A stretch of 64,000 nt of DNA, taken from Streptomyces sp. ICC1. GTDB lineage: Bacteria > Actinomycetota > Actinomycetes > Streptomycetales > Streptomycetaceae. The translations under genes and the position numbers were made by a program. The stretch spans positions 2,632,267 to 2,696,266 of the forward strand of contig NZ_CP030287.1 of the NCBI RefSeq assembly GCF_003287935.1, in the 5' to 3' direction. The notes below the pieces were generated by a model that was not told the origin of the DNA, ran no database searches, and saw only the letters and a program-made list of their open reading frames with translations. Positions 261-17,928 of this stretch are shown here, in pieces; positions within the stretch are counted from its first letter, which is position 1, and every line of letters starts with the position of its first letter.

Positions 261-332
261 CCCCACAGGTCCCGCACCCCCCACATCCCGAGCATCCCGT
301 CACCGACTCACCACGGAAGGACGCCATCACCC

Positions 333-1025
333 GTGCCTCACATACCCCCCGTAGAGCCGTACCCCATGCCGGCGGAAGGGGACCTCCCCGACAACACGGT
401 GGGCTGGGTGCCCGACCCGGCCCGGGTCGTGCTGCTGCTGCACGACATGCAGGAGTTCTTCCTCAGGCCGTTCCCCCGCACCGGCGAACCCGGCGGCTCC
501 CTCGTGTCCAACGCCACCCTCCTGCGGGACCGCTGCGCCGAGCTGGGCGTCCCCGTGGCCTACACCGCCCAGCCCGGCGGCATGACCGTGGAGCAGCGCG
601 GTCTGCTCCGCGACTTCTGGGGGCCGGGGATGACCCCGACACCGGAGGACCGCAGGATCGTCCCCGGGCTCGAATCGCGCCCGCAGGACTGGGTGTTCAC
701 CAAGTGGCGGTACAGCGCCTTCCACCAGTCCGACCTCCTGGAGCGGATGCGCCTCCACCAGCGCGACCAGCTGATCGTCTGCGGCGTCTACGCGCACATC
801 GGGGTCCTGATGACCGCCGTGGACGCGTACACCAACGACATCCAGCCCTTCCTGGTCGCCGACGCCGTGGCCGACTTCTCCGCCGACGACCACCGGCTCG
901 CCTTGAACTACGTCGCACGGCGCGCCGGCCGGGTGCTCACGACCAAGACCGCCCTCGGCGAACTCGGCGGACCCGCCGGACCCGCCGGACCCGGGGAACC
1001 CGGCGAATCCGGAGCAGCCCGGTGA
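333..1025 (+). CDS. phzD: Isochorismatase PhzD: 2-amino-2-deoxyisochorismate hydrolase
   Basis: This 230-residue isochorismatase-family hydrolase should cleave the enolpyruvyl ether of 2-amino-2-deoxyisochorismate (ADIC) to pyruvate and DHHA. The N-terminus ([10 protein letters not shown]), Asp38 in VLLLHDMQ, Lys124 in FTKWRYSAF and GVYAHIGVL follow the PhzD/EntB pattern. Val158 stands where cysteine-hydrolase relatives have the nucleophilic Cys, as in PhzD. The tail is a Gly-Pro-rich low-complexity run ([12 protein letters not shown]). The GTG start has GGAAGGA about 11 bases upstream. The gene heads an operon with phzE, the carrier protein and the PPTase. Pairing with PhzE favours the amino substrate over isochorismate. 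Confidence 0.9.
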
Positions 1026-1063
1026 ACACGCCCTCCACAGCACCTGACCCGACGAGGAACAAC

Positions 1064-2983
1064 ATGGCATCAGCACGTGAGACACCTGACCTCCTGGCAC
1101 GGATCCTCGACGGCCGCGCGGACGACTTCGCGCTGCTGCACCGGCCGGAGCAGGCCGGGGCCGACACCCTGGAGATCCTCCTCGGCGAGGTGACCGAGGT
1201 CGCCGCCCTCAAGGACCTGCCGCTCGCCGAGGACCCGGCGCCCGGTGCGGGACACGACCTGCTGGTCATGGTCCCGTACGGGCAGATCACCGAGCGGGGC
1301 TTCCGGGCCCGCGCCGACGGCGAGTCGCTGCTCTCCATGGCCGTACGCGAGCAGGCCGCGGTGCCGCTCGGCGCGACCCTGTCCCGGCTCCCGGACGGGC
1401 CGGTCAAGTGCGTCGACGGACGGTTCGACGTCCCGGACGAGGAGTACGCGGACATCGTGCGCCGTGTGATCAAGGACGAGATCGGTACCGGGGAGGGGGC
1501 CAACTTCGTCATCAAGCGCTCCTACGTCGCGCAGCTGCCCGACTTCTCCCGGCAGGTGGCCCTGGCCGTCTTCCGGCGGCTGCTGGAGCGCGAGTCCGGT
1601 GCGTACTGGACGTTCCTCGTGCACACGGGCGGACGCACGTTCGTCGGCGCCACACCGGAGCGGCACATCAGCGTGCACGGCGGCGTGGCCGTCATGAACC
1701 CCATCAGCGGCACCTACCGCTATCCCGCGGCCGGCCCCTCCCTGGACGGCGTCCTGGAGTTCCTCGAGGACCAGAAGGAGACCGATGAGCTCTACATGGT
1801 CGTCGACGAGGAGCTGAAGATGATGGGCCGTGTCTGCCCGTCGGGCGCGCGGCTGTCCGGCCCGTACCTCAAGGAGATGGCACGCCTGGCGCACACGGAG
1901 TACTTCATCGAGGGCACGACCGATCGCGACGTCCGCGACATCCTCCGCGAGACGCTGTTCGCCCCGACCGTCACCGGCTCCCCGCTGGAGAGCGCGGCCA
2001 AGGTGATCCACCGTTACGAGCCCGTCGGCCGCGGCTACTACAGCGGGATCGCCGCTCTCATCGGCCACGATGCCGCGGGTGGCCGCACCCTCGATTCCTC
2101 GATCCTCATCCGCACCGCCGACATCGACGCCTCGGGGCGGATGAGCATCGGGACGGGCGCGACCCTGGTGCGCCACTCGGACCCCGTGTCCGAGGTGCGC
2201 GAGACCTGGGCCAAGGCCGCGGGGCTGCTCGCGGCACTGGGCGAACCCGAGCCCACCCGCTTCGGCGCCCACCCCGCGGTCCGCAGGGCGCTCGACGGGC
2301 GCAACGAGCGGATCGCCGACTTCTGGCTGCGCGACCCGGGCAGCCAGACCGGGCAGGAACAGCCCCTGGCGGGGCAGAGGGTCCTGGTGGTGGACGCGGA
2401 GGACACCTTCACCGAGATGATCGCCCACCAGGTGCGCTCCCTCGGGTGCGAGGTGACGGTACGGCGCTTCGACGAGCCGTACGAAGTGGCCGGGCACGAC
2501 CTGGTGATCCTGGGCCCCGGACCGGGCGATCCGCGCGAGGTGGACCACCCCAAGATCGCCCATCTGCGGGCTGCCGTCACCGGGCTGCTCGCGGAGCGCC
2601 GGCCCTTCCTGGCCGTGTGCCTGAGCCATCAGGTGCTCAGCACCGTCCTGGGCCTGCCGCTGCACCGCAGGCCGGTGCCCAACCAGGGCGTCCAGCACGA
2701 GATCGACTGGTTCGGCGGGCGCGCGCGGGTGGGCTTCTACAACACCTTCGCCGCCCACACCGAGGAGGACGGGTTCGACCATCACGCGTACGGGCGGGTA
2801 CGGGTCAGCCGCGATCCCGAGACCGGTGAGGTCCACGGCCTGCTGGCCGACGGCTTCGCCTCCATGCAGTTCCACGCCGAGTCCGTGCTGACCCAGAACG
2901 GCCCCGGTGTCATCGCCGCGCTCCTCGAGGGCCTGGCCGCCGCACACCGCACGGACGCTTTGGAGCCCACCCATGTCAGTTGA
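1064..2983 (+). CDS. phzE: 2-amino-2-deoxyisochorismate synthase PhzE
   Basis: This 639-residue fusion has a TrpE-like chorismate-binding domain (about 1-425) and a class I glutamine amidotransferase domain (about 450-630). It should convert chorismate and glutamine to ADIC, the substrate of PhzD. The amidotransferase triad is visible: Cys519 in AVCLSHQ, His604 and Glu606 in MQFHAES, with the GPGPGDP turn before it. The synthase half has NPISGTYRY and DEELKMMGRVCP. The length matches Pseudomonas PhzE (about 630) and the gene order matches phenazine clusters. ATG 1064 follows GAGGA by 6 bases; a GTG at 1022 overlapping the phzD stop is an alternative start. An ordinary anthranilate synthase would lack the adjacent phzD. 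Confidence 0.9.
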   Translation: MASARETPDLLARILDGRADDFALLHRPEQAGADTLEILLGEVTEVAALKDLPLAEDPAPGAGHDLLVMVPYGQITERGFRARADGESLLSMAVREQAAVPLGATLSRLPDGPVKCVDGRFDVPDEEYADIVRRVIKDEIGTGEGANFVIKRSYVAQLPDFSRQVALAVFRRLLERESGAYWTFLVHTGGRTFVGATPERHISVHGGVAVMNPISGTYRYPAAGPSLDGVLEFLEDQKETDELYMVVDEELKMMGRVCPSGARLSGPYLKEMARLAHTEYFIEGTTDRDVRDILRETLFAPTVTGSPLESAAKVIHRYEPVGRGYYSGIAALIGHDAAGGRTLDSSILIRTADIDASGRMSIGTGATLVRHSDPVSEVRETWAKAAGLLAALGEPEPTRFGAHPAVRRALDGRNERIADFWLRDPGSQTGQEQPLAGQRVLVVDAEDTFTEMIAHQVRSLGCEVTVRRFDEPYEVAGHDLVILGPGPGDPREVDHPKIAHLRAAVTGLLAERRPFLAVCLSHQVLSTVLGLPLHRRPVPNQGVQHEIDWFGGRARVGFYNTFAAHTEEDGFDHHAYGRVRVSRDPETGEVHGLLADGFASMQFHAESVLTQNGPGVIAALLEGLAAAHRTDALEPTHVS

Positions 2984-3485
2984 AGACCAGACCCTCGCCA
3001 CCGCGACTCCCGACGAAGCGCCGGCCGCGGTGGTGGCCGAGGTCACGCACCTGCTCGCCGACGTGCTCAGGGTGAAGCCCGAACTGATCGATCCCGGGCA
3101 GACGTTCGTTTCGCTGGGCGTCGGATCCGTGGCGACCGTGCAGTTCGTCTCGGTGGTCAACACGCGTTACGGAACCGCCCTCAAGGCCACCTCGCTGTTC
3201 GGTCAACCGACTCCGCTGGCCTTCGCGGGTCTCGTGGCACGCGAAGCGGGGATCAGGGAGCAGGGGGTGGCGTCCGCCGAGCCGGCCCCCGCCGACCAGG
3301 CCGCGGCCGACGGCCAACGGCTCGGCGACGGCCACCGGCCCGCCGACGGCCGACCGCTCGCCGACGACCAGGCGGCCGCCGAAGAACTGGGGGCCGCCGA
3401 AGAACTGGGGGCGCTCCTCGACGCGGTGCGCGCGGACCGGCTTTCCGTGGACGAGGCGCTCACGCGGCTGCCTCACCAGGCGTGA
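2973..3485 (+). CDS. Free-standing acyl/peptidyl carrier protein with C-terminal helical tail
   Basis: This 170-residue protein has a phosphopantetheine-binding domain (about 18-95) with the attachment Ser52 in SLGVGSVATVQF. After it comes a low-complexity Ala/Asp/Gly linker (about 100-145) containing the repeat AAEELG, then a terminal helix LLDAVRADRLSVDEALTRL. The gene overlaps the 3' end of phzE by 11 bases, so translation is probably coupled. The C-terminal helix resembles the first 25 residues of the PPTase encoded next (see findings). The carrier probably holds an aryl acid or extender intermediate, but no adenylation or acyltransferase gene lies within this operon, so the cargo is unknown. 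Confidence 0.85.
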   Translation: MSVEDQTLATATPDEAPAAVVAEVTHLLADVLRVKPELIDPGQTFVSLGVGSVATVQFVSVVNTRYGTALKATSLFGQPTPLAFAGLVAREAGIREQGVASAEPAPADQAAADGQRLGDGHRPADGRPLADDQAAAEELGAAEELGALLDAVRADRLSVDEALTRLPHQA

Positions 3486-3498: not shown

Positions 3499-4428
3499 AT
3501 GGACGAACGAGAGATAATCACCCGGTTCAAGGCCGGACTCCTGGAGCGCGAGCAGGCCGTGTGGCTCCTCGCCGAGCGGCGAAGGACACCCGGTCGCGGC
3601 CCGGTCGCGGTCGCGGTGTCCGGCGGGGCAGACACGGCGCCGGAGCGGACCGAGCCCATCAAGCTCTGGTTCTGCTCCAACGACGAGCTCGATCCCGGGC
3701 TCGCCGTCACCCTGGCCGGGCACTGGCTGGACGCACAGGAGCAGGAGATCGCAGACCGGTTCCTGTTCGAACGGGACCGGCGCCAGTATCTGGTGGCCCA
3801 TGCGCTCGTACGGCGGGTACTCGCGCTGGAAAGCGGCCTGCCCGAGGCGGAAGCCGTGATCTGGCGCTCTGAGCGCGGGCGGCCGTTCCTGCGGCCACCC
3901 ACCGCAGGACTACCGCGCGGCGGTGCGGAGTTGGACTTCAACCTGTCCCATGCCGGGGGCCACAACCTGCTCGGCGTGGTGCGCAGTCACCGGATCGGGG
4001 TGGACGTGGAGCGGGTCGACCGCGGTGAGCAGGGGCTCGACGCGATCATCGAGACCTTCGCACGGGACGAGCGGGATTGGGTGGCACAGGCCGCGCCCGG
4101 CCGCACCCGGGACTGCCGGACCCTGCGGCTGTGGACTCTGAAGGAGGCGTACTCCAAGGCGCGCGGGCTGGGCCTCGGACTCCCCTTCGACAGCTTCTCC
4201 TTCACCCTGGACGAGGAGCGCGGGGTCCTGGGATTCAGGCCGCCCGAGTCCGAAGGGGCGCTGCCCTGGCGGTTCCTGGAGCTGGAGCCGGAGCCCGGAG
4301 TGCTCGCGGCCGTGGCACTCCTCGCCGGCACGGGCGTGTCGTCCGTTCTCCAGCTGCACCGCGGTTTTCCCTGGAGCCGGGAGGCACCGGAGCTGCTGGC
4401 GCTACCGGTTCCGGTCGCCGGCCTCTGA
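3499..4428 (+). CDS. Sfp-type 4'-phosphopantetheinyl transferase
   Basis: This 309-residue enzyme would move 4'-phosphopantetheine from CoA onto carrier proteins, presumably the one encoded 13 bases upstream. The Sfp motifs are present: LDFNLSHAGG, IGVDVERVD (Asp169, Glu171) and WTLKEAYSKARGLGLGLP (Glu216, Lys219). The magnesium-binding residues are therefore intact. It is longer than typical Sfp enzymes (about 225-250) because of an N-terminal helix (EIITRFKAGLLEREQAVWLL) and linker that could dock to the carrier tail. The 3' end overlaps the convergent receptor gene by 27 bases. Confidence 0.9.
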   Translation: MDEREIITRFKAGLLEREQAVWLLAERRRTPGRGPVAVAVSGGADTAPERTEPIKLWFCSNDELDPGLAVTLAGHWLDAQEQEIADRFLFERDRRQYLVAHALVRRVLALESGLPEAEAVIWRSERGRPFLRPPTAGLPRGGAELDFNLSHAGGHNLLGVVRSHRIGVDVERVDRGEQGLDAIIETFARDERDWVAQAAPGRTRDCRTLRLWTLKEAYSKARGLGLGLPFDSFSFTLDEERGVLGFRPPESEGALPWRFLELEPEPGVLAAVALLAGTGVSSVLQLHRGFPWSREAPELLALPVPVAGL

Positions 4429-5127
4429 CTCCGCGCCGGCGGTGTCGGGCGGCGCGGTGTCGGGTGTCACGGTGGACGGCGTCACGGTGGACGGCGTCGC
4501 CGGGTGGGACTCGTCGCCGCGCCGCAGGGAGAGATCGATACGGGGCAGGGTCCCGGGCGTGGCGATCCCCGGGAGCAGCAGCCGCCACATCTCCACCGTG
4601 CGCTCCGGCAGGTCCTTGCGCCCGTTCACCAGCTGCGCGTACAACTGCACGCCGGTACACGCGCTGACGACGAACTCGGCCACCCACATCGGGTCGATTC
4701 CGGGCAGCAGCTCCCCGCGGTCCCGCGCGTCACAGAGACACTGCGCCATGATGTCCCGCCACTGCAGATAGGGCGTGATGTCGTGGACGCCGAAGCTGCC
4801 CTGTTCCACGGAGAGACGCACGCCGGCGCGCAGCAGCGGGTCCTGCAGGAGCTGGTGCGACCACACCCGTGTGATGTCCACGATGCGCTGCAGCCCCTGA
4901 GTGTCGAGACTCGGCTCGATGCTCTGGGGCTGCGACTGCATGACCGCCTTGGCAATGCCTTCCTTCGACTCGAAGTGGAAGTACAGCGCTCCCACGGTCA
5001 GCCCGGCGCGCTTCGCGATCTTGTTGAGCCCCGTGCCGGCGTACCCGGACGCGTCGAACTCCTCTGCCGCCGCTCGTAGGAGCAGCTCGCGTGTGCGCAG
5101 CGCGCGATCCTGCATCGGACGTTCCAT
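4402..5127 (-). CDS. ArpA/ScbR-type γ-butyrolactone receptor (TetR family)
   Basis: The 241-residue protein has an N-terminal TetR helix-turn-helix (GLNKIAKRAGLTVGALYFHF, about 30-50) and an all-helical ligand domain in the style of ArpA, ScbR and BarA. It lies divergent from an afsA homologue, the classic arrangement for a hormone receptor that represses its own promoter and the synthase promoter until γ-butyrolactone binds. ATG 5127 follows GGAG by 7 bases; other in-frame starts lie at 5166 and 5115. The C-terminus carries a Thr/Pro-rich tail with STVTPSTVTPDTAPPDTAG, absent from typical relatives. It probably controls the AT-rich operators listed here; that link is inferred. Confidence 0.87.
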   Translation of the reverse strand: MERPMQDRALRTRELLLRAAAEEFDASGYAGTGLNKIAKRAGLTVGALYFHFESKEGIAKAVMQSQPQSIEPSLDTQGLQRIVDITRVWSHQLLQDPLLRAGVRLSVEQGSFGVHDITPYLQWRDIMAQCLCDARDRGELLPGIDPMWVAEFVVSACTGVQLYAQLVNGRKDLPERTVEMWRLLLPGIATPGTLPRIDLSLRRGDESHPATPSTVTPSTVTPDTAPPDTAGAESEAGDRNR

Positions 5128-5170: not shown

Positions 5171-5190
5171 AAGAATCATCCTTATTTTAT
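5171..5190. promoter_or_regulatory. Putative operator A (receptor/afsA divergent promoter)
   Basis: AAGAATCATCCTTATTTTAT sits in an AT-rich island in otherwise GC-rich DNA, between the divergent receptor and afsA genes. It resembles sites B, C and D elsewhere in the cluster and has a weak inverted symmetry. It is probably an autoregulatory element or overlaps the promoter of the receptor gene. Confidence 0.5.
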
Positions 5191-5333
5191 CTCTCACGGG
5201 CTTCGCCGTCCAGGCGTGTGCGCCCGCCGCGTGTTCTGTGCCCGCCCTCGTTCGATGTGACCACTTCGGCGTGGGGACGCGGCACGTTCATGTGCGCTTC
5301 GTGCCCGTAGGTCTTCACCGGGGGAGAAATCGC

Positions 5334-6311
5334 ATGCCATGCACCGCCACAGCCGCCCTCGCTCCGCCCCTCATGTTCGTTGCGGGGGAGCTCGTCCACA
5401 AGGCCCGCCCCGGCTCAGTGCTCCTGACCGGTCTGCGGTCCGACGGGAGCGACGGGTTCGTCGTCTCCGCCCACTGGCCCGCGGTGCACGGCTACTACGC
5501 CACCGGGCAGACCGCGCTCGACCCGCTCCTGCTCACCGAGACGGTGCGCCAGTGCTTACCCCTGCTGTGCCACAGCGCGTATGACGTCCCCCTGGGGCAC
5601 CACCTGCTCTGGGACACCCTCAGATACGAACTGACTCCCGCGGCCCTGGTCCCGAAGGACCGCAGCGGAGGGCTCGAACTCCGCGTCACCTGCCTGGAGT
5701 CGACCCGTCGCGGCGGGCGGGCGTCCGCGCTGACCCTGCTCATATCCGTGGTGCAGGGCGGGCAGTTGCTCGCCGAGTGCACCACCCGCCTGACCGTGCA
5801 GGCGCCGGCCGTCTACCAGCGGCTGCGGGCGGGGCGCGGCGCCCCCGATGCCGTCACCGCCCTGCCGGCCGCACCCACCGCCCCCATCGAGCCGTCCGCC
5901 CTGGGGCGCGCCCGGCTCCGCGACGTCGTCCTCAGCCCTGTGGTGGGGCTCGGTCGGTGGAGGTTGCGGGTGGACACCAAGGATCCCCTCTTCTTCGACC
6001 ACCCGCTCGATCACGTGCCGGGCCTGCTCCTCCTGGAGGCGTCCCGCCAGGCCGCGTTGACGCTTCCCTCCGAGCGCCCGCTGTCCGTGACGGCCTTGGA
6101 GTCCTCCTTCTTCCGCTACGTCGAACTCGACGCTCCGTGCTGGATCGAGGCGCGGCCGACCGACTCGGACGGCCACCGGCGTGCGGTGGTCACGATGTGG
6201 CAGAACGGTGGCGTGTGCTTCTCCGCGACGGTGCTGCTCGCCCGGAAGCCGGGCCCCGGTCCCGCCGACCCGGTGGGTACCGGTGGCGAGGTCATCCCGT
6301 TCCCGCGGTGA
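5334..6311 (+). CDS. afsA: AfsA-family γ-butyrolactone synthase
   Basis: This 325-residue protein has two A-factor hot-dog repeats, the first near 14-150 with the family signature ELVHKARPGSVLLTG, the second near 200-310 with DHPLDHVPGLLLLEA. AfsA-type enzymes condense a β-ketoacyl group with dihydroxyacetone phosphate in the first step of γ-butyrolactone signal synthesis. ATG 5334 is preceded by GGGGGAG at a good distance. Codon 75 is TTA (5556-5558), so translation should need the bldA leucyl-tRNA, tying signal production to development. The gene is divergent from its likely receptor and ends before a strong hairpin. Confidence 0.9.
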   Translation: MPCTATAALAPPLMFVAGELVHKARPGSVLLTGLRSDGSDGFVVSAHWPAVHGYYATGQTALDPLLLTETVRQCLPLLCHSAYDVPLGHHLLWDTLRYELTPAALVPKDRSGGLELRVTCLESTRRGGRASALTLLISVVQGGQLLAECTTRLTVQAPAVYQRLRAGRGAPDAVTALPAAPTAPIEPSALGRARLRDVVLSPVVGLGRWRLRVDTKDPLFFDHPLDHVPGLLLLEASRQAALTLPSERPLSVTALESSFFRYVELDAPCWIEARPTDSDGHRRAVVTMWQNGGVCFSATVLLARKPGPGPADPVGTGGEVIPFPR

Positions 6312-6436: not shown

Positions 6437-7210
6437 TCAGGCGGCGGTCCAGCCACCGTCGACCGGCATCGCGACGCCCGTGACGAAAGAGGCCTGATCG
6501 CTGCACAGCCAGGCGGCGGCACGCGCGATCTCATCCGGTGCGGCCATCCGCTTCTGGACCGAGCGCCCGACGAAATCCTCCTCCAGCGAGGGGTTCTCCT
6601 TGAGCACCTGGTCCATCATCTCGGTGCGGGTGCTGCCCACCACCAGGGCGTTCACCCGGATCCCGCGCAGGCCGTACTCGGCCGCGGCCGCCCGCGTCAG
6701 CCCGAGGACCGCGTGCTTGGCCGCCACATAGGCGGAGGACGCTCCGGTAGCCAACACCCCTGCCACGCTGGAGGTGTTCACGATCGCCGCCGGGCGGCCG
6801 GAGCCGAGCATGGCGGGGATCTGGTGGCGCATGCAGTTCCACACGCCCCGGACGTTCACGGCCATGATCTGCTCGAAGACCGCGGTGTCCGTCTCGTGCA
6901 ACAAGCTGCCGGACGTCGCGTAACCGGCGTTGTTGAAGGCCCCGTCCAGCCGGCCGAACCGGGACACCGTTTCGGCGACGGCCCGTTCGACCTCGTCCTC
7001 CCGGGTCACATCCGCCGCCGCCACCACCGCGCGCCCCCCGGCCGCGGCTATCTCGGCGGCCAGCTCGCGCAGCCGCTCCTCGCGCCGTGCCATGAGCACC
7101 ACGGTCGCCCCCTCGGCGGCGAACACGCGCCCGGCCGCCGCCCCGATTCCGCTGGACGCCCCCGTGATCATCACGATCCGGTCCCGCAGCAAGCCTGTGT
7201 CTCTCGTCAT
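6437..7210 (-). CDS. Short-chain dehydrogenase/reductase
   Basis: This 257-residue classical SDR has the nucleotide-binding TGASSGIG near residue 17, NNAG, the catalytic Ser region NTSSVAG and YVAAK, and ends with the usual PVDGGW. Two roles fit. It could oxidise DHHA from PhzD to 3-hydroxyanthranilate, as EntA/DhbA-type SDRs do for the dihydroxy analogue. Alternatively it could act as a γ-butyrolactone-pathway ketoreductase beside afsA. The sequence alone does not decide. ATG 7210 has GGGAGGGAAG upstream. Operator-like site B lies about 80 bases upstream of the start, suggesting control by the receptor or pseudo-receptor. Confidence 0.85.
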   Translation of the reverse strand: MTRDTGLLRDRIVMITGASSGIGAAAGRVFAAEGATVVLMARREERLRELAAEIAAAGGRAVVAAADVTREDEVERAVAETVSRFGRLDGAFNNAGYATSGSLLHETDTAVFEQIMAVNVRGVWNCMRHQIPAMLGSGRPAAIVNTSSVAGVLATGASSAYVAAKHAVLGLTRAAAAEYGLRGIRVNALVVGSTRTEMMDQVLKENPSLEEDFVGRSVQKRMAAPDEIARAAAWLCSDQASFVTGVAMPVDGGWTAA

Positions 7211-7286
7211 GTCGAGCTTCCCTCCCCCTGGATTGCCGCTTCTGACCCTCGGGGGCCGATCGTCACGCGGCCCCCTCGACAGGGAA

Positions 7287-7305
7287 AAGAATAATGGTTC
7301 TTATG
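7287..7305. promoter_or_regulatory. Putative operator B (SDR promoter)
   Basis: AAGAATAATGGTTCTTATG contains a perfect 5-bp inverted repeat, AAGAA and TTCTT with a 6-bp spacer (7287-7302). It is the clearest copy of the shared AT-rich element and sits just upstream of the SDR gene. Confidence 0.55.
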
Positions 7306-7357: not shown

Positions 7358-7993
7358 CTAACCCGCCCCGGGCGGGCGGATGGCCGAGATGCCGTACAGG
7401 AGCAGGTCGCAGAGGTGGGCGAACAGGGCCCTGGCGGCCTCGGATCCCTCGGACCGCGCGTCGTTGCCGCGGGCGCACACCTCCGTCCCGGTGATCAGGC
7501 GCAGGGCCATGTCCGTCACCGCCTCCGGCGTGACGCCCTCCCTCAACTGCCCTCTTTCTCCCGCGCTCCGGAACATCTCGCGCGCCTGCTGGAACCAGGA
7601 CTCCGACCAGTCTCCGGCTTCCGGGACCTCTCCGGAGAGCCGTACGGCCGCGCGCGCCAAGACGTCGCGGTGCAACAGTTCGAGCAGGGCGAGGAGGAGC
7701 GAACGGGCCCTGTGCAGCGGGGCCGCCGGGCGTTGGGCCACCTCGCCCACCCGCTCCTGGATCCGGGCGAACCCGACCTCCATCAGCTCGGCGAGGAGCC
7801 GGTCCTTCGTGGGGAAGTGAAAGGTCAGCGCGCCCGTCGTGACGCCGACCTCGTTTGCGATGCGATGCATGGCCATGCCGCCGTAGCCGTACTTGTCGAT
7901 CTCCCGTGCGGCGGCATCCAGGAGAGCGCCGCGCGTCAGCAGGGACCTCTCCTGCTGTTTCGCCGGCCTCCTTCCTTCTCCGTGTGGCGCCAA
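7358..7993 (-). CDS. TetR-family regulator (pseudo γ-butyrolactone receptor type)
   Basis: The 211-residue protein has a TetR DNA-binding domain (MAMHRIANEVGVTTGALTFHF, within about 39-60, shown in part) closely similar to the ArpA-type receptor upstream, but a different C-terminal ligand domain. The start is unusual: TTG at 7993, supported by a perfect AGGAGG five bases upstream and by the lack of a better ATG. It is divergent from the first transposase-like gene, with operator-like site C between them. Pseudo-receptors of this kind often bind the antibiotic or another hormone and share target sites with the true receptor; that role is inferred from the layout. Confidence 0.83.
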   Translation of the reverse strand: MAPHGEGRRPAKQQERSLLTRGALLDAAAREIDKYGYGGMAMHRIANEVGVTTGALTFHFPTKDRLLAELMEVGFARIQERVGEVAQRPAAPLHRARSLLLALLELLHRDVLARAAVRLSGEVPEAGDWSESWFQQAREMFRSAGERGQLREGVTPEAVTDMALRLITGTEVCARGNDARSEGSEAARALFAHLCDLLLYGISAIRPPGAG

Positions 7994-8105
7994 TGCGACC
8001 TCCTGCTCTCTGTTCGCTGATCGACCTCATACGGTCCACGGCTCATCCGCCGTCCACAACGGCGAGTTGACGAACTTGCACCGAGAAGGCATCCTCGGTC
8101 TTCAA

Positions 8106-8128
8106 AAGAATAAGAATGATGGTTATGT
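8106..8128. promoter_or_regulatory. Putative operator C
   Basis: AAGAATGATGGTTATG at 8112-8127 matches site B at most positions, with a second AAAGAAT just before it. It lies in the intergenic region of the TetR gene (minus) and the first transposase-like gene (plus). Confidence 0.5.
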
Positions 8129-8180
8129 TTCTACTGCGGCTGGCGACCACCGCCAGCCAGGACCGATCAAGGAGCCAGTC

Positions 8181-9419
8181 ATGTCTGCACGCGTCGCGGC
8201 GGTCCTCAGCGCACCGCTCAGCGCACCGCTCAGCGCACCGCTCAGCGCACCGCTCAGCGCACCGGAGCGCGCGCAGCGAGGGCGACCGGAGGGCCTGACC
8301 GCCTACGGGGAGCGGGTCTTCGGGTATCTGCCCCGCAGCGACCAGCGCCGCTGGGCGGACGCCTATCTGCGAGGGCTGCTGGACACGCCGGGGCGCAAGA
8401 CGGTGCGGCGGATGGCCCGGATGCTGGCCCTGCCCGAGAGCGCGCCGCAGGCTCTGCGGCAGTTCATCTCCGCCAGCCCCTGGGAATGGGAGCCCGCGCG
8501 GGTGGAGCTGGCCCGGATCGCCATGGACCTGCTGCCCGATGCCGTGTGGACGGCCAAGCCCGTGCTGCTGCGCAAGCGGGGAAGCCATTCGGTGGGTCTT
8601 CGTCCGGGCGTCCTGCCGGGGACCGGCCGCCGGGTGAACTGTCAGGTCGGCATCGGCCTGTTCCTCTCCGGCGGCCGGTGCAGCATCCCGGTCGCCTGGC
8701 GTCTCCTTCTCGACGACGCCTGGTGCGACGACCCCGAACGGCGCCGTCGGGCGCGGATTCCGGACGAGGTGACGCCCAGGCCCGCCTGGGCCCTCGTACT
8801 GGAGATGGTCGAGCAGTTCGCCGCCGCGGGTGTGGCCGAGTCCGTGCCCCTGGTGCTCGGCCGTGACTTCGCCCCGGTTGCCCAGCAGGTGGCCGCGCAA
8901 CTCACGAGGAGCGGCCGGGACTTCGTCCTCGAGGTGGCGCCCGGACAGCCGCTCATCCCGGTCTCGCCCCGCGGGGCCGGCCCGTCCCCGGCCGCTGTCT
9001 CCGTCAGTGGCGCGGCGGCCTTCGTGGCGGCCCACTGCCGGCGGACGATGTCCGAGCCGCCCGGCCGGGCGCAGATGTTCTCGACCGCGGTGCGCCTCCT
9101 TCCGCCCCGTCCCACGGTGCCGGCCGCCAACCAGCCCCAACGGCTCGTGGCGGAGGTCGCCGCCGTCCCGAAGCGGCCCTCCCGGTTCTGGGTCACGTCG
9201 CTCCGCGACGCACGGACCACCACCGTGCGGGGGATCGCGCACCGCACCGCCCTGACCGACGTGGCGGTCTGGGACGTCCAGACCGAGCTCGGGCTCCTGG
9301 ACTTCGAGGGCCGTTCCTTCCCCGGCTGGCACCACCACATGACGCTGGCCTCCGCCACCTACCTCTATCGCCAACTGGGGTTCGCGGGCGCGCCGCAGAG
9401 GTGGCCCGCCGGTGCATGA
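8181..9419 (+). CDS. IS701-transposase-like protein 1, probably domesticated
   Basis: This 412-residue protein follows the fold pattern of IS701-family transposases: LPRSDQRRWADAYLRGLL near the N-terminus, then HSVGLRPGVLPGTGRRVNCQ, and GLLDFEGRSFPGWHHHMTL near the end. In active IS701 enzymes the first catalytic Asp sits in a DDT-like motif just before the HSVG stretch; here that place reads WTAKPVLLRKRG, with no acid. The second motif is also altered (VLGRDFAPVA). No terminal inverted repeats flank the gene, and it follows its own ribosome site (AAGGAG, 6 bases) and operator-like site C. I infer a domesticated, non-transposing DNA-binding protein. A five-fold LSAP repeat marks the N-terminus. 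Confidence 0.75.
   Translation: MSARVAAVLSAPLSAPLSAPLSAPLSAPERAQRGRPEGLTAYGERVFGYLPRSDQRRWADAYLRGLLDTPGRKTVRRMARMLALPESAPQALRQFISASPWEWEPARVELARIAMDLLPDAVWTAKPVLLRKRGSHSVGLRPGVLPGTGRRVNCQVGIGLFLSGGRCSIPVAWRLLLDDAWCDDPERRRRARIPDEVTPRPAWALVLEMVEQFAAAGVAESVPLVLGRDFAPVAQQVAAQLTRSGRDFVLEVAPGQPLIPVSPRGAGPSPAAVSVSGAAAFVAAHCRRTMSEPPGRAQMFSTAVRLLPPRPTVPAANQPQRLVAEVAAVPKRPSRFWVTSLRDARTTTVRGIAHRTALTDVAVWDVQTELGLLDFEGRSFPGWHHHMTLASATYLYRQLGFAGAPQRWPAGA
8205..8264. repeat. 12-bp in-frame tandem repeat, 5 copies
   Basis: CTCAGCGCACCG occurs five times without change, encoding LSAP repeats at the N-terminus of transposase-like protein 1. Perfect identity of the copies suggests recent slippage. Confidence 0.9.
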
Positions 9420-9514
9420 CCGCGTCCCTCCCCGCCGCCGCCCAGCCGGACACCGTGCCACCCCGCCGCCGATCCCTCCGGGGGTCTTGCCCTCGGGCAA
9501 CAGTGAGGAAGCCG

Positions 9515-10720
9515 ATGATTGACCACCACCCGCCCGTTGTGCGTGCCGGTCACGCCATGCCGGCTCCGCTCCGTCCCGCTTCCCGGGACATGATCCTCGC
9601 CGAGCTGTCCTCCAGGGTCTTCACTTCACTGCCCCGGAGCGATCAGCGCCGCAAAGGCCTGCAGTATCTGAACGGTCTGCTGACCATCCAGGGGCGCAAG
9701 TCGATCCGCAACATCGCGAAGCTGCTCGGAGGCCAGGTGTCCGAGCAGAACCTGCACCATTTCATCAGCGACTCCACCTGGGACTGGGTTCCCATCCGCC
9801 GGGCGCTGGCCGACGCCCTGGACGCCGCCCTGCCGACCCGGGCGTGGGTGGTGCGGCCCATGACCATCCCCAAGGCCGGGCAGTACTCCGTGGGGGTGGG
9901 CCGGCACTTCTCCCCGGCGCTCGGGCAGACGTTGAACGCGCAGCGCGCCATCGGTGTCTGGGCGGCGTCGGAATCCGCGAGCGTGCCGGTCAACTGGCGC
10001 TTACAGCTCCCCTCTTCGTGGCACGTGGACGATCCCCGGCGCAGCCAGGCGGCGATACCGGAGGGAACGGGCGCGGAGAGCCTGCACGAATGCGCGGTCG
10101 AGGCGTCCCGGGAGACCGTGCGGGGATGGGGGCTGCCGGTGCGGCCCGTCATCTTCGACCTGGAGGAGGTGCCCGAGCCGCTCCTGGAGCCGCTCGCCAC
10201 CACGCGCGCCCCGTTCATGGCGAGGGTGGGCGGGGACACCCCGCTCACGGTGACGGACCGCGTCATGGCCGGACGGGAGCAGAGCACGCTCACCGCGCAC
10301 CAGATCATGGCCATGGCCGTGAACATGCGGCGGCCGGTCCCGGGGAGGCGTCCCCTGTCGGGCGTCGTGAAGGGCATGTCCCTCGCCGCCGCCGTCCGCG
10401 TCGAACTCCCGTCGTACCCCAGGGGTTTGCCACACGGACAGCTGGTGCTGATGGGAATGGGCGAGTACGGCGGCCGGTGGCCGGCCGAACTGTGGCTGTC
10501 CAACTCCACCACGGTCCCCCTGGAGTATCTGGCCAGGCTGAGGCAGCTCACGGACAGGGTGGCCCAGGACTCCGCGGGCGTCGCGGACCGGGTGGGCATC
10601 CGGGACTTCACCGGGCGTTCCTTCAACGGCTGGCACCGGCACGTCACGCTCGCCTCGATCGCCCACGCCGTCACCGTGCTCGGCGACCAACCCCAACAAA
10701 GACCCCGCATCGCGGGCTAG
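9515..10720 (+). CDS. IS701-transposase-like protein 2, probably domesticated
   Basis: A 401-residue paralogue of the preceding gene: LPRSDQRRKGLQYLNGLL, QYSVGVGRHFSPALGQTLNA and IRDFTGRSFNGWHRHVTL align with it throughout. The first DDE position is again lost (VVRPMTIPKAG). The two paralogues have diverged well, so this is an old pair rather than a recent IS duplication. ATG 9515 follows GTGAGGAAG. Codon 163 is TTA (10001-10003), making translation bldA-dependent. The stop codon coincides with the left end of a MITE. A regulatory or DNA-binding role within the cluster is inferred. Confidence 0.73.
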   Translation: MIDHHPPVVRAGHAMPAPLRPASRDMILAELSSRVFTSLPRSDQRRKGLQYLNGLLTIQGRKSIRNIAKLLGGQVSEQNLHHFISDSTWDWVPIRRALADALDAALPTRAWVVRPMTIPKAGQYSVGVGRHFSPALGQTLNAQRAIGVWAASESASVPVNWRLQLPSSWHVDDPRRSQAAIPEGTGAESLHECAVEASRETVRGWGLPVRPVIFDLEEVPEPLLEPLATTRAPFMARVGGDTPLTVTDRVMAGREQSTLTAHQIMAMAVNMRRPVPGRRPLSGVVKGMSLAAAVRVELPSYPRGLPHGQLVLMGMGEYGGRWPAELWLSNSTTVPLEYLARLRQLTDRVAQDSAGVADRVGIRDFTGRSFNGWHRHVTLASIAHAVTVLGDQPQQRPRIAG

Positions 10721-10905
10721 TGCTGTGACCGGAAAGGTCTACCGGGTCGCGGCGCCCGGCACGGCACCTCGCGGCGTTGTCGGACCACGCCGGTACGTCC
10801 GGTACGAGGCGTGGTCCTCCGCCCGGGGGCCCCTCCCGGCGGTAGCTGGGGGAGATGCACCGCACCGGACACCGCGACCCGGCAAACCTTCCCGGCCACA
10901 GCACT
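10719..10905. mobile_element. MITE with 33-bp terminal inverted repeats
   Basis: The left end (from 10719, AGTGCTGTGACCGGAAAGG) and right end (to 10905, CGGCCACAGCACT) form inverted repeats over about 33 bp with four mismatches. An inner 10-bp inverted repeat, GGACCACGCC (10782-10791) and GGCGTGGTCC (10808-10817), lies inside. The 187-bp element has no gene. I see no clear target duplication, though the left junction is CTAG. It was probably moved by an IS5-like transposase elsewhere. The left TIR supplies part of the stop codon of the upstream gene. Confidence 0.75.
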
Positions 10906-11194: not shown

Positions 11195-13297
11195 ATGCAG
11201 TCACCACCGCAGACCGCACCGGATCAGCCGGCGCAGCGCCCCGACGACTGGAGCGCGCTCGACCAGCGGGCCGTCGACACCGCCCGCGCCCTGGCCATGG
11301 ACGCGGTGCAGCACGCCGGGCACGGACATCCCGGAACCGCGATGAGCCTCGCCCCGGCCGCGTACGTCCTCTTCCAGAAGGTCATGCGGCACGACCCCGC
11401 CGACCCCGGCTGGGAGGGGCGGGACCGTTTCGTGCTCTCGGCCGGTCACGCCAGCCTGCTGCTGTACGTCCAGCTGATGCTGGCGGGCTACCCGCTGAGC
11501 CTGGACGACCTGAAGGCGTTCCGCCGACGGGGCAGCCTCACCCCCGGACACCCGGAGCGCGGCCACACCCCCGGTGTGGAGACCACCACCGGGCCGCTGG
11601 GGCAGGGCGTCGCCAACGCGGTGGGCATGGCCATGGCGGCCCGCTACGAGCGGGGGCTCTACGACCCGGGGGCCCCCGCCGGCTCCTCCGCCTTCGACCA
11701 CACGGTCTGGGTCATCGCGGGCGACGGCGACCTGCAGGAAGGCGTGTGCGCCGAGGCGTCGTCGCTGGCCGGACACCAGAAGCTCGGCAACCTGGTCGTG
11801 CTCTACGACGACAACCACATCTCGATCGAAGGGGACACGAGCACCGCCTTCTCCGAGGACGTCGCGCAGCGGTACGCCTCCTACGGCTGGCACGTGCAGC
11901 GGGTGGAGCCGAAGCCCGACGGCGACCTGGACCCCCGTGCCCTGCAGAAGGCGTTCCTCGCGGCCAAGGAGGAACGGGGGCGGCCCTCGCTGATCGCCGC
12001 GCGCTCGGTCATCGCCTGGCCCGCCCCGCGCGCGCAGGGCACCGCCGCCGCACACGGTGCCGCGCTGGGCGCGGAGGAGGTCGCCGCCACCAAGGAGGTC
12101 CTCGGACTCGACCCGGGCCTCTCGTTCCACGTACCGCGGGAGGTGCTCGCGCACACCCGGACGGCCCTCGACCGCGGCCGTGCCGCACACGCCGCCTGGG
12201 CCGGGAAGCTGGCGCGGTGGCGCGAGGCCCACCCCGGTCGGGCCGCGGAGCACGAGCGGATCACCCAAGGGCAGCCGCCGACCGGGTGGGAGAACAAGCT
12301 CCCCGTCTTCGAGCCCGGCAGCACCATGGCCACCCGCAAGGCCTCAGGCACCGTACTCGCCGCGCTGGGACCGCTGTTGCCCGAGCTGTGGGGAGGCTCC
12401 GCCGACCTCGCGGGGTCCAACAACACCACGATCGACAGCACTTCCTCCTTCCTGCCCGTGGGCAACGCCCTGCCGCAGGCGGATCCGTACGGCCGTACGG
12501 TGCACTTCGGGATCAGGGAACACGCCATGGCCTCCGTGATGAACGGCGTGGCGCTGCACGGCGCGACCCGCATCTACGGAGGCACCTTCCTGGTCTTCTC
12601 CGACTACATGCGCCCCGCGGTGCGGCTCGCCGCGCTGATGCGGCTCCCGGTCACCCACGTGTGGACCCACGATTCGATCGGGCTCGGCGAAGACGGCCCC
12701 ACCCACCAGCCGGTCGAGCAGCTCGCCTCCCTGCGCGCGATTCCCGGCCTGAACGTCGTACGCCCCGCGGACGCGAACGAGACGGCGGCGGCCTGGGCGG
12801 AGATCCTGCGCCGGCACAGCGCGGACCCGGCCCCGCACGGACTCGTGCTGTCCCGGCAGGATCTGCCCGTCTACCCGCCCAACGAACTCGTCTCCCGCGG
12901 TGGTTACGTCTTCCGCGAGGCCGAGGGCGGCGCTCCGCAAGCCCTGATCGTGGCCACCGGTTCCGAGGTGTCCCTCGCGGTCGCGGCACAAGAGCTGCTG
13001 CGGGAGCGCGGCATCGCGACCCGCGTGGTGTCGATGCCCTGCCTGGAATGGTTCATGGAGCAGGACCGCTCCTACCGGGACCAGGTGCTGCCCCCCGCCG
13101 TGCGGGCGCGGGTGACGGTCGAGGCCGGGATCGGCATGGGCTGGGACCGCATCGCGGGCGAGGCGGGGCGCGTGGTGTCCCTGGAGCGGTTCGGGGCCTC
13201 GGCCGACGGCGCGCTGCTCTTCCGCGAGTTCGGCTTCACCCCCGAGGCGATCGCCGCCGAGGTGGAGACCGTCATGGACAGGGCGGCCCGCCGATGA
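11195..13297 (+). CDS. tkt: Transketolase
   Basis: The 700-residue, full-length thiamine-diphosphate enzyme makes erythrose 4-phosphate from glycolytic and pentose-phosphate sugars. Visible motifs are GHPGTAMSLAP, HGHPER-type GHTPGVETTTGPLGQG, the ThDP motif GDGDLQEG with DDNHISIEGDT, and HFGIREHAM with the catalytic Glu in the C-terminal half. Bacterial transketolases have about 660-700 residues, so nothing is missing. It is followed by aroA through an ATGA overlap, and so heads a precursor operon feeding the shikimate pathway. This is probably a cluster copy rather than the housekeeping one. Confidence 0.93.
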   Translation: MQSPPQTAPDQPAQRPDDWSALDQRAVDTARALAMDAVQHAGHGHPGTAMSLAPAAYVLFQKVMRHDPADPGWEGRDRFVLSAGHASLLLYVQLMLAGYPLSLDDLKAFRRRGSLTPGHPERGHTPGVETTTGPLGQGVANAVGMAMAARYERGLYDPGAPAGSSAFDHTVWVIAGDGDLQEGVCAEASSLAGHQKLGNLVVLYDDNHISIEGDTSTAFSEDVAQRYASYGWHVQRVEPKPDGDLDPRALQKAFLAAKEERGRPSLIAARSVIAWPAPRAQGTAAAHGAALGAEEVAATKEVLGLDPGLSFHVPREVLAHTRTALDRGRAAHAAWAGKLARWREAHPGRAAEHERITQGQPPTGWENKLPVFEPGSTMATRKASGTVLAALGPLLPELWGGSADLAGSNNTTIDSTSSFLPVGNALPQADPYGRTVHFGIREHAMASVMNGVALHGATRIYGGTFLVFSDYMRPAVRLAALMRLPVTHVWTHDSIGLGEDGPTHQPVEQLASLRAIPGLNVVRPADANETAAAWAEILRRHSADPAPHGLVLSRQDLPVYPPNELVSRGGYVFREAEGGAPQALIVATGSEVSLAVAAQELLRERGIATRVVSMPCLEWFMEQDRSYRDQVLPPAVRARVTVEAGIGMGWDRIAGEAGRVVSLERFGASADGALLFREFGFTPEAIAAEVETVMDRAARR

Positions 13298-14577
13298 CGC
13301 CGCAAGTCTCCCGGCTGCGCCCGTTGACCGCGCGCATCCCCGGCTCCAAGAGCATCACCACCAGGGCCCTGCTCCTGGCGGCGGCGGCGAAGGGCACCAG
13401 CACCCTGTGGGCCCCTCTGGTCAGCCATGACACCCTCGCTTTCAAGGCAGCCCTCGGCAGCCTCGGCGTGCGGGTCGAGACCAGTCCCAGCGACCAGTTC
13501 TGGGACGTGACCGGCAACGGCCGCGGCCCCGTCGGCACGGCCGAGGTGTGGTGCGCGGACGCCGGCACCGCGGCCCGCTTCCTGCCCCCGTTCAGCGCGG
13601 CGGGCGAGGGCACCTTCACCTTCGACGGCTCCGAACAGCTCCGGGCCCGGCCGCTGGGCCCGCTGATGAAGGCCATGGCCGACCTCGGTGCCCATCTGGA
13701 GGCCCCCGTCCCGGGTCGCCTCCCGCTGACCGTACGGGCCACCGGTCTGGAGGGCGGTGAGCTGCGGGTGGATTCCTCCATGAGCAGTCAGTTCCTCAGC
13801 GGCCTGCTGATGGCCGCCCCTCTGATGCGGCGTCCGGTCCGGGCCGACCTGCGGGGATCCGTCAGCCGCCCCTACCTGGACATGACGCTGTCCCTGATGC
13901 GGCGCTTCGGCGCGGACGTCCGGGAACCCGAGAACGGCGTGGTCGAGGTGCGGCCGGGCGGCTACCGGCCCGCCGCCGTCGTCATCGAGCCCGATGCCTC
14001 CACCGCCTCGTACGTCTTCGCCGCGGCCGCCGCGACGGAGCACAGGGTGACGGTGATGGGTCTCTGCGCGCGGAGCCTCCAGGGTGATCTGCGGTTCGTG
14101 GACGCACTGCGCACGATGGGCGCACAGGTGGAGGTGTCGGATGCCGCCGTCACCGTGACGGGCACCGGTCGGCTGCGCGGCGGTTTCACCCTCGACATGG
14201 GTGACATCTCGGACACCTTCATGACCCTCGCGGCCATCGCCCCGCTCGCCGACGCGCCGCTGACCATCCGAGGCGTGCGGCACGCGCGGTTCAAGGAGTC
14301 GGACCGCATAGCGGCGGTGGCGCAGAACCTGCGCGCCTGCGGAATCCGGGTGGACGAGACGGAGGACTCGGTCACCGTCCACCCCGGTCCCCTGCGGCCG
14401 GCCCGCATCGCCTGCCACCGGGACCACCGGATCGCCATGGCGTTCTCCGTCCTGGGGCTGGCCGCACAGGTTCCGCTGGTACTCGACGACCCGTCCTGCG
14501 TGACCAAGACCTTCCCCGGGTTCCACCAGGAGATGGCGCGGCTCTTCCCGCACTACGCGGTGCCGGAGCGCCGCTGA
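13294..14577 (+). CDS. aroA: 3-phosphoshikimate 1-carboxyvinyltransferase (EPSP synthase)
   Basis: The 427-residue protein transfers enolpyruvyl from PEP to shikimate 3-phosphate. Motifs are IPGSKSITTRALLLAAAA at the N-terminus, DASTASYVFAAAA, RFKESDRIAAVAQ and HRDHRIAMAFSVLGLA. The PEP-loop motif usually written NAGTxxR reads DAGTAARFLPP, with Asp for Asn, a departure worth noting. The start ATG overlaps the tkt stop (ATGA). Together with tkt, aroC and aroB it should raise chorismate supply for PhzE. Confidence 0.92.
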   Translation: MTPQVSRLRPLTARIPGSKSITTRALLLAAAAKGTSTLWAPLVSHDTLAFKAALGSLGVRVETSPSDQFWDVTGNGRGPVGTAEVWCADAGTAARFLPPFSAAGEGTFTFDGSEQLRARPLGPLMKAMADLGAHLEAPVPGRLPLTVRATGLEGGELRVDSSMSSQFLSGLLMAAPLMRRPVRADLRGSVSRPYLDMTLSLMRRFGADVREPENGVVEVRPGGYRPAAVVIEPDASTASYVFAAAAATEHRVTVMGLCARSLQGDLRFVDALRTMGAQVEVSDAAVTVTGTGRLRGGFTLDMGDISDTFMTLAAIAPLADAPLTIRGVRHARFKESDRIAAVAQNLRACGIRVDETEDSVTVHPGPLRPARIACHRDHRIAMAFSVLGLAAQVPLVLDDPSCVTKTFPGFHQEMARLFPHYAVPERR

Positions 14578-14660
14578 CGGGAACGGCCCGTCCACCCCAC
14601 CGTCCACCGCACACCGCACACCGCCCATGGCCATGAGGACAAGAGGAGAGCAGGGAAACG

Positions 14661-15845
14661 ATGAGCAGACTGCGCTGGCTCACCGCGGGGGAGTCGCACG
14701 GCCCCGCACTCGTCGCGACGTTGGAGGGCCTGCCCGCCGGCGTGCCGATCACCACGCGGATGGTGGTGGACGAGCTGACGCGGCGGCGCCTCGGCCACGG
14801 GCGCGGCGCGCGGATGAAGTTCGAGCAGGACGAAGTGACCTTCCTCGGCGGTGTGCGGCACGGGCTCACGCTGGGTTCCCCGGTCGCGGTCATGGTGGGG
14901 AACACCGAGTGGCCGAAGTGGCGGCAGGTGATGGCGGCCGACCCGGTCGACCCCGCGGAACTGGCGGGCCTGGCCCGCAACGCCGCGCTGACCCGTCCGC
15001 GTCCGGGCCACGCCGACCTCGCGGGGATGCAGAAGTACGGCTTCGACGAGGCGCGCCCCGTGCTGGAGCGCGCCAGCGCGCGGGAGACCGCGGCGAGGGT
15101 GGCGCTCGGAGCGGTGGCCCGGTCGTACCTGAAGGAGACGGCGGGGATCGAGATCGTCAGCCATGTGGTGGAGCTGGGAGCCGCGAAGGCCCCGTACGGG
15201 CTGGTGCCCGCGCCGGACGACGTGGAGCGGCTCGACGCGGACCCGGTGCGCTGCCTGGACGGGGACGCGAGCAGGGCGATGGTCGCCGAGATCGACCGGG
15301 CCCAGAGGGACGGAGACACCCTGGGCGGCGTCGTCGAGGTCGTCGCCCACGGTGTGCCGGTCGGCCTCGGCTCGCACGTGCACTGGGACCGCAGGCTGGA
15401 CGCGCGGCTGGCCGGTGCGCTGATGGGCATCCAGGCGATCAAGGGGGTCGAGGTGGGCGACGGCTTCGGCCTGGCGCGCGTACCGGGCTCGCGGGCCCAC
15501 GACGAGATCGTGCCGACGGCCGACGGCATCCGGCGCTCCTCCGGCCGGTCCGGCGGCACCGAGGGCGGACTGTCCACCGGTGAACTCCTGCGCGTACGGG
15601 CCGCGATGAAGCCGATCGCGACGGTTCCGCACGCTCTGGCCACCGTGGACGTCAGCACCGGGGAGGCGGCCGTCGCCCACCACCAGCGCTCGGACGTGTG
15701 CGCCGTGCCCGCCGCCGGGATCGTGGCGGAGGCGATGGTGGCGCTGGTCCTCGCCGACGCGGTGGCGGAGAAGTTCGGCGGCGACAGCACGGCCGAGACC
15801 CGCCGCAACGTGCACGGGTTCCTGGGCAACTTGGAGATCGCATGA
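14661..15845 (+). CDS. aroC: Chorismate synthase
   Basis: The 394-residue enzyme should remove phosphate from EPSP to give chorismate, the direct substrate of PhzE, with reduced FMN as cofactor. The family signatures [37 protein letters not shown] and [15 protein letters not shown] are visible, as is [17 protein letters not shown]. Length fits the usual 360-400. ATG 14661 has a purine-rich stretch (AGGAGAGCAGGGA) upstream. The 3' end overlaps aroB as ATGA. Confidence 0.94.
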
Positions 15846-16957
15846 CCGTTGTCCGCATCCCCGTCGGGGCGAGCGCCGGGACGGACCCGTACGAGGTCCT
15901 GGTCGGGCACCGACTCATGGGTGAACTGGGCCCGTTGGTCGGGCCCGCGCACCGGGTCGCGGTGATCCACCCGGTGGCGCTGACCCCGATGGGGGAGGCC
16001 GTACGGGAGGATCTCGCCGCCCGGGGATACGAGGCGGTCGCCATCCGGGTGCCGAACGCGGAGGGGGCCAAGACCGTCGAGGTCGCCGCCCACTGCTGGC
16101 GGGCCCTGGGGCGGGCCGGCTTCACCCGCAGCGATGTGATCGTCGGCATCGGCGGCGGCGCCACCACGGACCTGGCGGGTTTCGTCGCGGCCGGCTGGCT
16201 GCGCGGGGTGCGCTGGATCGCGGTGCCCACCACGGTCCTCGCCATGGTGGACGCGGCCGTCGGCGGCAAGACGGGCGTCAACACCGCCGAGGGCAAGAAC
16301 CTCGTCGGCGCCTTCCACCCGCCCGCGGGGGTGCTGTGCGACCTGGCGGCGCTGGAGTCGCTGGACGTCGAGGACTACGTCTCCGGCCTCGCCGAGATCA
16401 TCAAGGCGGGCTTCATCGCCGACCCGGCCATCCTCGACCTGGTCGAGGCGGACCCGGAGGCCGCCCGCACCCCCGCGGGACAGCACACCGCGGAGCTGAT
16501 CGAGCGTGCGATCCGGGTCAAGGCGGAAGTCGTTTCGCAGGACCTCAAGGAGGCCGGCCGGCGCGAGATCCTCAACTACGGGCACACCCTGGCCCACGCC
16601 ATCGAGCAGAACGAGGGCTACCGCTGGCGGCACGGTGCGGCGGTCTCCGTCGGCCTGGTGTTCGCCGCCGAACTCGGCCGCGCCGCAGGACGTCTGGACG
16701 ACGCCACCGCCGACCGGCACCGCGCGGTCCTCGAGTCGGTGGGCCTCCCGGTGGCCTACCGCGGTGACCAGTGGCCCGAGCTCCTGGCCGCCATGCGGAT
16801 CGACAAGAAGTCCCGCGGCGACCTGCTGCGCCTGATCGTCCTCGACGGTCTCGCCAGGCCGGCCGTACTGGAGGGCCCCGACCCGGCCGTCCTGCACACC
16901 GCCTACGTCGAGGGCTGCGCCTTCTCGGGCTCCCCCACACGGAAGGCGGAGATGTGA
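15842..16957 (+). CDS. aroB: 3-dehydroquinate synthase
   Basis: The 371-residue NAD- and metal-dependent enzyme closes the ring of DAHP to 3-dehydroquinate. Motifs: [48 protein letters not shown] and the metal-binding [12 protein letters not shown]. The start overlaps aroC by four bases. The last 55 bases overlap the 3' end of the convergent NmrA-like gene. No DAHP synthase, dehydroquinase, shikimate dehydrogenase or shikimate kinase gene lies in the window, so the operon covers only part of the route. Confidence 0.93.
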
Positions 16958-17847: not shown

Positions 17848-17870
17848 GAAGATAATAATGAACCCTATGC
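17848..17870. promoter_or_regulatory. Putative operator D (nmrA-like/exporter divergent promoter)
   Basis: GAAGATAATAATGAACCCT, followed by ATGC, is an AT-rich island whose reverse complement (CATAGGGTTCATTATTATCT) aligns loosely with sites A-C. It is less similar than B is to C. It lies between the NmrA-like and first exporter genes. Confidence 0.4.
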
Positions 17871-17928
17871 TTTTTGTTGAGCAGTCGTGTCCCCGATTTC
17901 GGACGGAACTCACCCCGGAGGAAGTACG

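Follow-up and report, generated by a model that had tools for sequence, protein, structure and literature searches.

We found that two adjacent genes in a 64,000-nucleotide stretch of the Streptomyces sp. ICC1 genome (contig NZ_CP030287.1, positions 2,632,267 to 2,696,266; hereafter, the window) encode proteins with the fold of IS701 transposases but without the catalytic residues. Gene A (8181..9419, plus strand, 412 amino acids) belongs to the subfamily of SgcR3, a regulator of the antibiotic C-1027, while gene B (9515..10720, plus strand, 401 amino acids) belongs to a second subfamily. Very probably, A and B descend from an IS701 transposase, have lost its catalytic activity, and serve as DNA-binding regulators of the TylR/SgcR3 kind; most likely, they activate the surrounding chorismate/shikimate-fed biosynthetic cluster under a butyrolactone-type hormone. 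We regard them as likely regulators because the family without cutting residues includes the DNA-binding activator SgcR3. An earlier sequence-only reading had proposed a domesticated transposase pair turned into regulators or DNA-binding proteins, and this proposal gained support from the family-wide loss of the catalytic triad (314 of 314 homologues), the Tn5-like fold, the family tree and the kinship with SgcR3.

Both open reading frames are intact and lie on the same strand, with 95 bp from the stop codon of A to B. In a Pfam domain search, both matched PF13546 (DDE_5; E values of 4.9e-41 for A and 3.3e-42 for B), and they scored 271 and 281 bits, respectively, against the NCBIfam IS701 model NF033540 (cut-off 150). 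The fold markers and separate ribosome sites named in the sequence-only reading were recovered, as each protein keeps the motifs LPRSDQRR, SVG, and GRSF.GWH.H, and ribosome-site-like sequences (AAGGAG and GAGGAAG) are present, one per gene. The predicted structures of A and B both have an RNase H-like transposase fold of the Tn5 type, the nearest solved folds being those of the Tn5 transposase and inhibitor (PDB 3ecp, 1mus, and 1b7e). Identity with Tn5 is about 11-15%, the alignment extends only up to Tn5 residues ~372-394, and A and B differ from Tn5 in lacking the triad; a PDB sequence search with B found no credible relative (best E 1.5). At the N-terminus of A, a twelve-base tandem repeat, CTCAGCGCACCG (8205-8264), encodes LSAP repeats, where the structure confidence (pLDDT) falls below 50.

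The catalytic Asp-Asp-Glu (DDE) triad was located by alignment to IS701 transposases of the same genome and genus, represented by 17 rows with all three residues (L001 and L129 being one and the same gene). In these references (e.g., L001), the triad columns are the second D of VDDTGF, the D of VADTGYG, and the E of RWRIEHDYRELK; the choice of this E and of the second D was guided by the YREK signature of Tn5-like transposases. An earlier choice, the E of HFEGRSF with the first D of VDDTGF, was dropped; it gave D-D-E in 18 of 322 rows, intact L001 among them. At these columns, A has P127, G227, and D360, and B has P115, D215, and A350. By this alignment, the first Asp is gone from both proteins, as the sequence-only reading had claimed, B is also without the Glu, and A has probably lost the second Asp as well, so that neither protein (P/G/D and P/D/A) carries the intact triad of an active IS701 element. 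Among 314 distinct homologues (the best 120 of each of 610, 222, and 1085), none has the first Asp and none the full triad, while D stands at the second column in 278 and E at the third in 30, these two columns being alignment-dependent. Because the triad is absent across all of these homologues, its loss, as judged from the alignment, characterises the family and did not arise as a mutation at this locus. One protein outside this set (L082) has D at the first column and neither of the other two residues. Stop codons were also tried as a test of decay and left unused; they flagged many intact-transposase rows, maybe where matches overran the natural stop.

The relationships were evaluated in a tree of 109 rows, obtained by a quick search without bootstrap and rooted on the intact rows, in which 34 of the 103 inner branches have support below 80. 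Nearly all rows without the full triad (91 of 93) form one side of a single branch with a Shimodaira–Hasegawa-like approximate likelihood-ratio (SH-aLRT) support of 100, and the opposite side consists of the 16 intact transposases with two degenerate relatives of theirs. The 91 rows divide into a set of 31 that includes A and SgcR3 (support 93) and a set of 60 that includes B (99); within the former, A and SgcR3 share a 25-row set at support 96. A and B fall in separate deep subfamilies of this tree, and therefore they appear to be old paralogues, as had been proposed, rather than the outcome of a recent tandem duplication. B is paired with an A-type protein in the window locus, L009, L011, and L021, and with a protein from another B-side subclade in L012, L014, L016, L018, L030, and L103. 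A and B thus share significant matches to PF13546 and NF033540 and common ancestry with the IS701-family transposases (intact L001, L115, L119, and others), from which they differ by the missing triad, the absence of a near-identical second copy, their recurrent neighbourhoods, and their place on the other side of the tree.

It is worth mentioning that a protein annotated as "transposase" on plasmid SGLP1 of S. globisporus C-1027 (L041:11965-13152), near DUF1702 genes and a type I polyketide synthase (PKS), is SgcR3. It has 395 amino acids, as given in PMC2657911, and both coding-region primers, in their gene-specific parts, match it exactly, as does R3RT2, a reverse-transcription PCR primer that is listed as reverse and matches the coding strand of sgcR3. 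According to PMC2657911, disruption of sgcR3 abolishes C-1027 and the sgcR1 and sgcR2 transcripts fall, purified SgcR3 bound the sgcR1R2 promoter and none of seven other fragments tested, and SgcR3 is 33% identical over the whole protein to TylR, an activator; the word transposase does not occur in this paper. SgcR3 is also without the triad (V101/D201/G343), is similar in length to A and B, and is related over its whole length to both, with 38% identity to A (E 2e-77) and 33% to B (E 2e-55), as compared to 30% with an intact IS701 protein. Promoter binding and an effect on production have been published for SgcR3 only, and A and B may be expected to act likewise. SgcR3 was studied as a single gene of an enediyne cluster, whereas A and B form a tandem of two subfamilies in a chorismate-type cluster; the target of SgcR3 is sgcR1R2.

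P0169, a protein 43% identical to A, is listed in the database as "TylR regulatory protein-like". Two further proteins, AcyB2 (carbomycin) and Srm40 (spiramycin), presumably resemble TylR. Both are called positive regulators in PMC6379999. TylR (tylosin) itself is likened to A and B through its reported identity with SgcR3 and its activator role, and PMC6693128 calls tylR a Streptomyces antibiotic regulatory protein (SARP) gene. Aur1O, the subject of PMC8910723, is unrelated. Activators of the kind represented by TylR and SgcR3 have been described before, and A and B add new members to them, while an IS701 origin of such activators was not found in the open-licence full texts searched and may be published elsewhere.

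The sequence-only reading had also placed A under an operator-like site, and the site proved real and common to the gap between scbR and afsA. We searched the window, with up to 3 mismatches, for the motif AAGAATNATNNTTATNTT, which had been read from this gap and from the promoter of A, and found it at four places, whereas 100 shuffles gave a mean of 0.00. The founding sites in the scbR-afsA gap (5171..5188, plus strand, matches from 5166) and in the promoter region of A (8112..8129, plus strand, overlapping matches from 8106) match by construction, while those ~75 bp upstream of the gene for a short-chain dehydrogenase/reductase (SDR; 7285..7304, matches to 7307, 2 mismatches) and just upstream of a major facilitator superfamily (MFS) gene (17849..17866, minus strand, 3 mismatches) are independent. 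The motif, shared by three promoters and one weaker site, is a putative receptor operator resembling published autoregulatory elements (AREs). L009 and L010 keep the cores of the founding sites unchanged, and in L011 the sites have diverged but can still be recognised; the exact core also occurs in L073 and L074, at the meeting point of ScbR-like and AfsA frames.

In the mechanism that we infer, which covers receptor control, DNA binding, regulation sign, and target promoters of A and B, AfsA together with the SDR would make the hormone, and the ScbR-type receptor would hold the operator-like site shared by the scbR-afsA gap, the SDR gene, and the region above A. Binding of the hormone would free the receptor from the operator and allow the A-B unit to be transcribed. 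A and B might then bind promoters of the cluster, or of a further regulator as SgcR3 does, and so switch production on.

The linkage to hormone genes recurs in other loci, in line with the search for orthologues beside AfsA that the sequence-only reading had suggested. Among the 27 loci found with B, annotated with Pfam on one representative per group, a tandem same-strand pair is present in 13 (L010 included, with its first gene as remnants; fragmentary L035 not counted), AfsA in 11, an ScbR-like gene in 13, a chorismate-type fusion in 18, and class II 3-deoxy-D-arabino-heptulosonate 7-phosphate (DAHP) synthase in 17. A genus sample of 61 genomes, searched with P0169 and hence drawn by similarity to an A-type protein, gave 73 stretches covering 79 of 88 places, with loci cut by contig ends kept. 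AfsA was found in 17 of the 52 catalysis-lacking loci and 0 of the 11 intact-transposase loci (Fisher p 0.027), and AfsA or an ScbR-like protein in 20 of 52 and 0 of 11, respectively (p 0.012); this comparison leaves out own-genome L129, L144, and L145, the mixed or unclear L082, L118, L136, L142, and L143, and L140 and L141, from which no gene was recovered. From the genome-wide AfsA density (at least 216 domain matches in ~516 Mb of the 61 genomes, with no genome above 8 matches), ~0.35 AfsA would be expected in the 52 loci, as compared to the 17 seen. An ScbR-like gene diverges within ~800 bases from the start of 10 of 59 genes without the first Asp, a set that includes two degenerate genes from the transposase side of the tree, similar to the TetR gene at 7358-7993 relative to A. 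Within the stretches shown for four annotated plasmid contexts, the ScbA/ScbR/TetR arrangement occurs in L039 and L040, and not in L041 and L042.

The single TTA codon of the pair, to which the sequence-only reading had pointed, is present in B (10001-10003) but missing from three orthologues (L009, L010, and L011), and it is given little weight. TTA codons occur in 19 of the 59 genes without the first Asp, in 10 of 16 intact transposases, and in 30 of 284 background genes (19/59 against 30/284, p 1e-4). We rejected TTA richness as a discriminating mark because the intact transposases are even richer.

For B, compared with four orthologues, the pairwise ratio of nonsynonymous to synonymous substitution (dN/dS) lies at 0.33-0.53, and for A, with three, at 0.32-0.41. 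These values are about the same as those of AfsA (0.30-0.45) and above those of transketolase (0.19-0.26). As estimated from these pairs, A and B are under real but moderate constraint, such as a regulator would show. The proposal that selection has kept two copies does not apply to every relative, as A is reduced to remnants in L010.

No near-identical second copy of A or B was found in the genome among the 40 candidates scored out of 423, the next DNA match being 68% over ~340 bases. There are 18 inverted-repeat pairs in 7900-11300, of which only one (I16) has arms outside both ends of A and B; it is a 14-nt, 86% pair, ~260-300 bp away from these ends and of chance-like length. By these searches, A and B have neither the terminal inverted repeats nor the multiple copies of an active IS701 element. 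The claim that the pair has no flanking transposon ends holds for IS701-like ends, but a mobile element resembling a miniature inverted-repeat transposable element (MITE; ~10717-10905, 46-nt arms, 83% complementary) starts at the stop codon of B. This element occurs at 40 or more places in the genome, its own included, with 82-100% identity; it is not IS701-like, is separate from A and B, and is missing at the aligned orthologous loci L009-L011. Its CTAG/CTGG flanks presumably reflect a target of the IS5 group.

Several observations weigh against A and B being hormone-controlled activators. Of the 17 other afsA-bearing loci in the genus sample, only 2 carry the operator core in exact form and 15 do not. 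A promoter scan of 7990-11250 found no sigma-70 promoter-like site and a single terminator-like site, on the minus strand, which is about what chance would give. In the stretches fetched, 35 of the 52 catalysis-lacking loci are without AfsA, the intact side of the comparison (Fisher p 0.027) rests on 11 loci, and linkage to PKS or non-ribosomal peptide synthetase genes was not significant (7 of 52 and 0 of 11, p 0.34). The B subfamily, to which SgcR3 does not belong, lies near AfsA in 7 of 35 genes, as compared to 11 of 23 on the A side. Finally, S. chumphonensis has only remnants of A (L010:9771-9962) beside an intact B and the rest of the cluster; this loss points to A being dispensable or replaceable in some cases.

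The same loss in L010, the MITE-like element at the stop codon of B, and the database names of the relatives, mostly transposase, would suit decaying, functionless remnants of an IS701 insertion. We consider such decay very improbable, since neither frame is broken, all nine pairs compared gave a dN/dS below 1, the same gene order is met again across deep divergence, and the lack of the first Asp in all 314 homologues is conserved across the family. Even less credence is given to A and B still being nucleases or transposases with substituted catalytic residues; the acidic D360 at the Glu position of A and the retained D215 of B would allow it, whereas the family-wide absence of the first Asp and of a near-identical second copy among the candidates scored speaks against it. 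Dead DNA-binding proteins might also repress or insulate, for example by competing with RNA polymerase, the receptor, or intact IS701 elements. Homology is a more direct guide to DNA binding than to whether regulation is positive or negative, the same genome has an intact IS701-type transposase gene (L001), and Tn5 has an inhibitor protein of the same fold (1b7e, among the fold matches of A and B). However, SgcR3 and TylR act positively according to PMC2657911, and recurrent afsA/scbR linkage suits cluster regulation better than control of insertion sequences, which makes repression or insulation unlikely.

If A and B are activators derived from a transposase, the whole TylR/SgcR3-type family may be viewed in the same way. 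Probably, its two deep subfamilies, with hundreds to more than 1000 database homologues mostly named transposase or hypothetical, stem from one IS701 domestication in which the first Asp was lost, the DNA-binding fold was kept, and the proteins were repeatedly wired behind butyrolactone receptors, which would make them a major class of switch hidden by annotation. In the boldest form of this idea, A and B would act as a hetero-pair that bridges promoters as transposases synapse ends. Because databases mostly name the members transposases, cluster mining likely skips them as mobile-element debris. If the family is indeed a class of activators derived from a transposase, expressing its members could switch on silent clusters, and the sites that they bind might be looked for as leftovers of the way IS701 recognised its ends. 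The family would then also represent, in bacteria, the domestication of a transposase into a transcription factor, with one member already tested experimentally in the literature.

A and B lie inside a biosynthetic cluster, with shikimate/chorismate, carrier protein, phosphopantetheinyl transferase, MFS, and AfsA/ScbR genes around them, and by its gene content the locus resembles a hormone-regulated cluster that provides its own shikimate. On the left are a fusion of chorismate-binding and glutamine amidotransferase domains (329..2983, plus strand, start uncertain), which is a recurrent neighbour of B homologues, a PP-binding carrier protein (2907..3485, plus strand, start uncertain), and a 4'-phosphopantetheinyl transferase (3499..4428, plus strand). 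The hormone locus comprises an ScbR-family receptor (4402..5127, minus strand; NF041196, 216 bits, cut-off 150; possibly starting upstream, at a TTG at 5166), an AfsA/ScbA-type butyrolactone synthase (5238..6311, plus strand; PF03756; NF041195, 306 bits, cut-off 200; the true start may lie downstream), and the SDR oxidoreductase (6437..7210, minus strand), assigned by domain and family models. The TetR protein divergent from A (7358..7993, minus strand) is pseudo-receptor-like, as its NF041196 score of 124 bits is under the cut-off of 150. Downstream of B, all on the plus strand, are a transketolase (11195..13297, from domain and family models), then, in 13294..16957, 5-enolpyruvylshikimate-3-phosphate (EPSP) synthase (13294-14577), chorismate synthase (14661-15845), and 3-dehydroquinate synthase (15842-16957), and the MFS exporter (17887..19428). 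Class II DAHP synthase, present in 17 of 27 related loci, was not found beside the window's own cluster. B homologues lie near a carboxylic acid reductase homologue in 11 of these 27 loci (L012, L015, and nine more) and near a class IV aminotransferase in three; the reductase, DAHP synthase, and aminotransferase neighbours hint at an aminobenzoate-type product family.

A third IS701-like protein without catalysis is encoded in the same genome at ~2.73 Mb, ~33 kb to the right of the window (L038:13293-14588). It has Q-P at the site of the first Asp and close relatives with up to 96% identity (L093-L097), in whose fetched stretches AfsA was not found. Within the window, a separate DDE_5 gene on the minus strand (49201-50347) is split over two frames (matches at 49565-50347 and 49201-49701) and lies in a region of lower G+C content at 46-52 kb.
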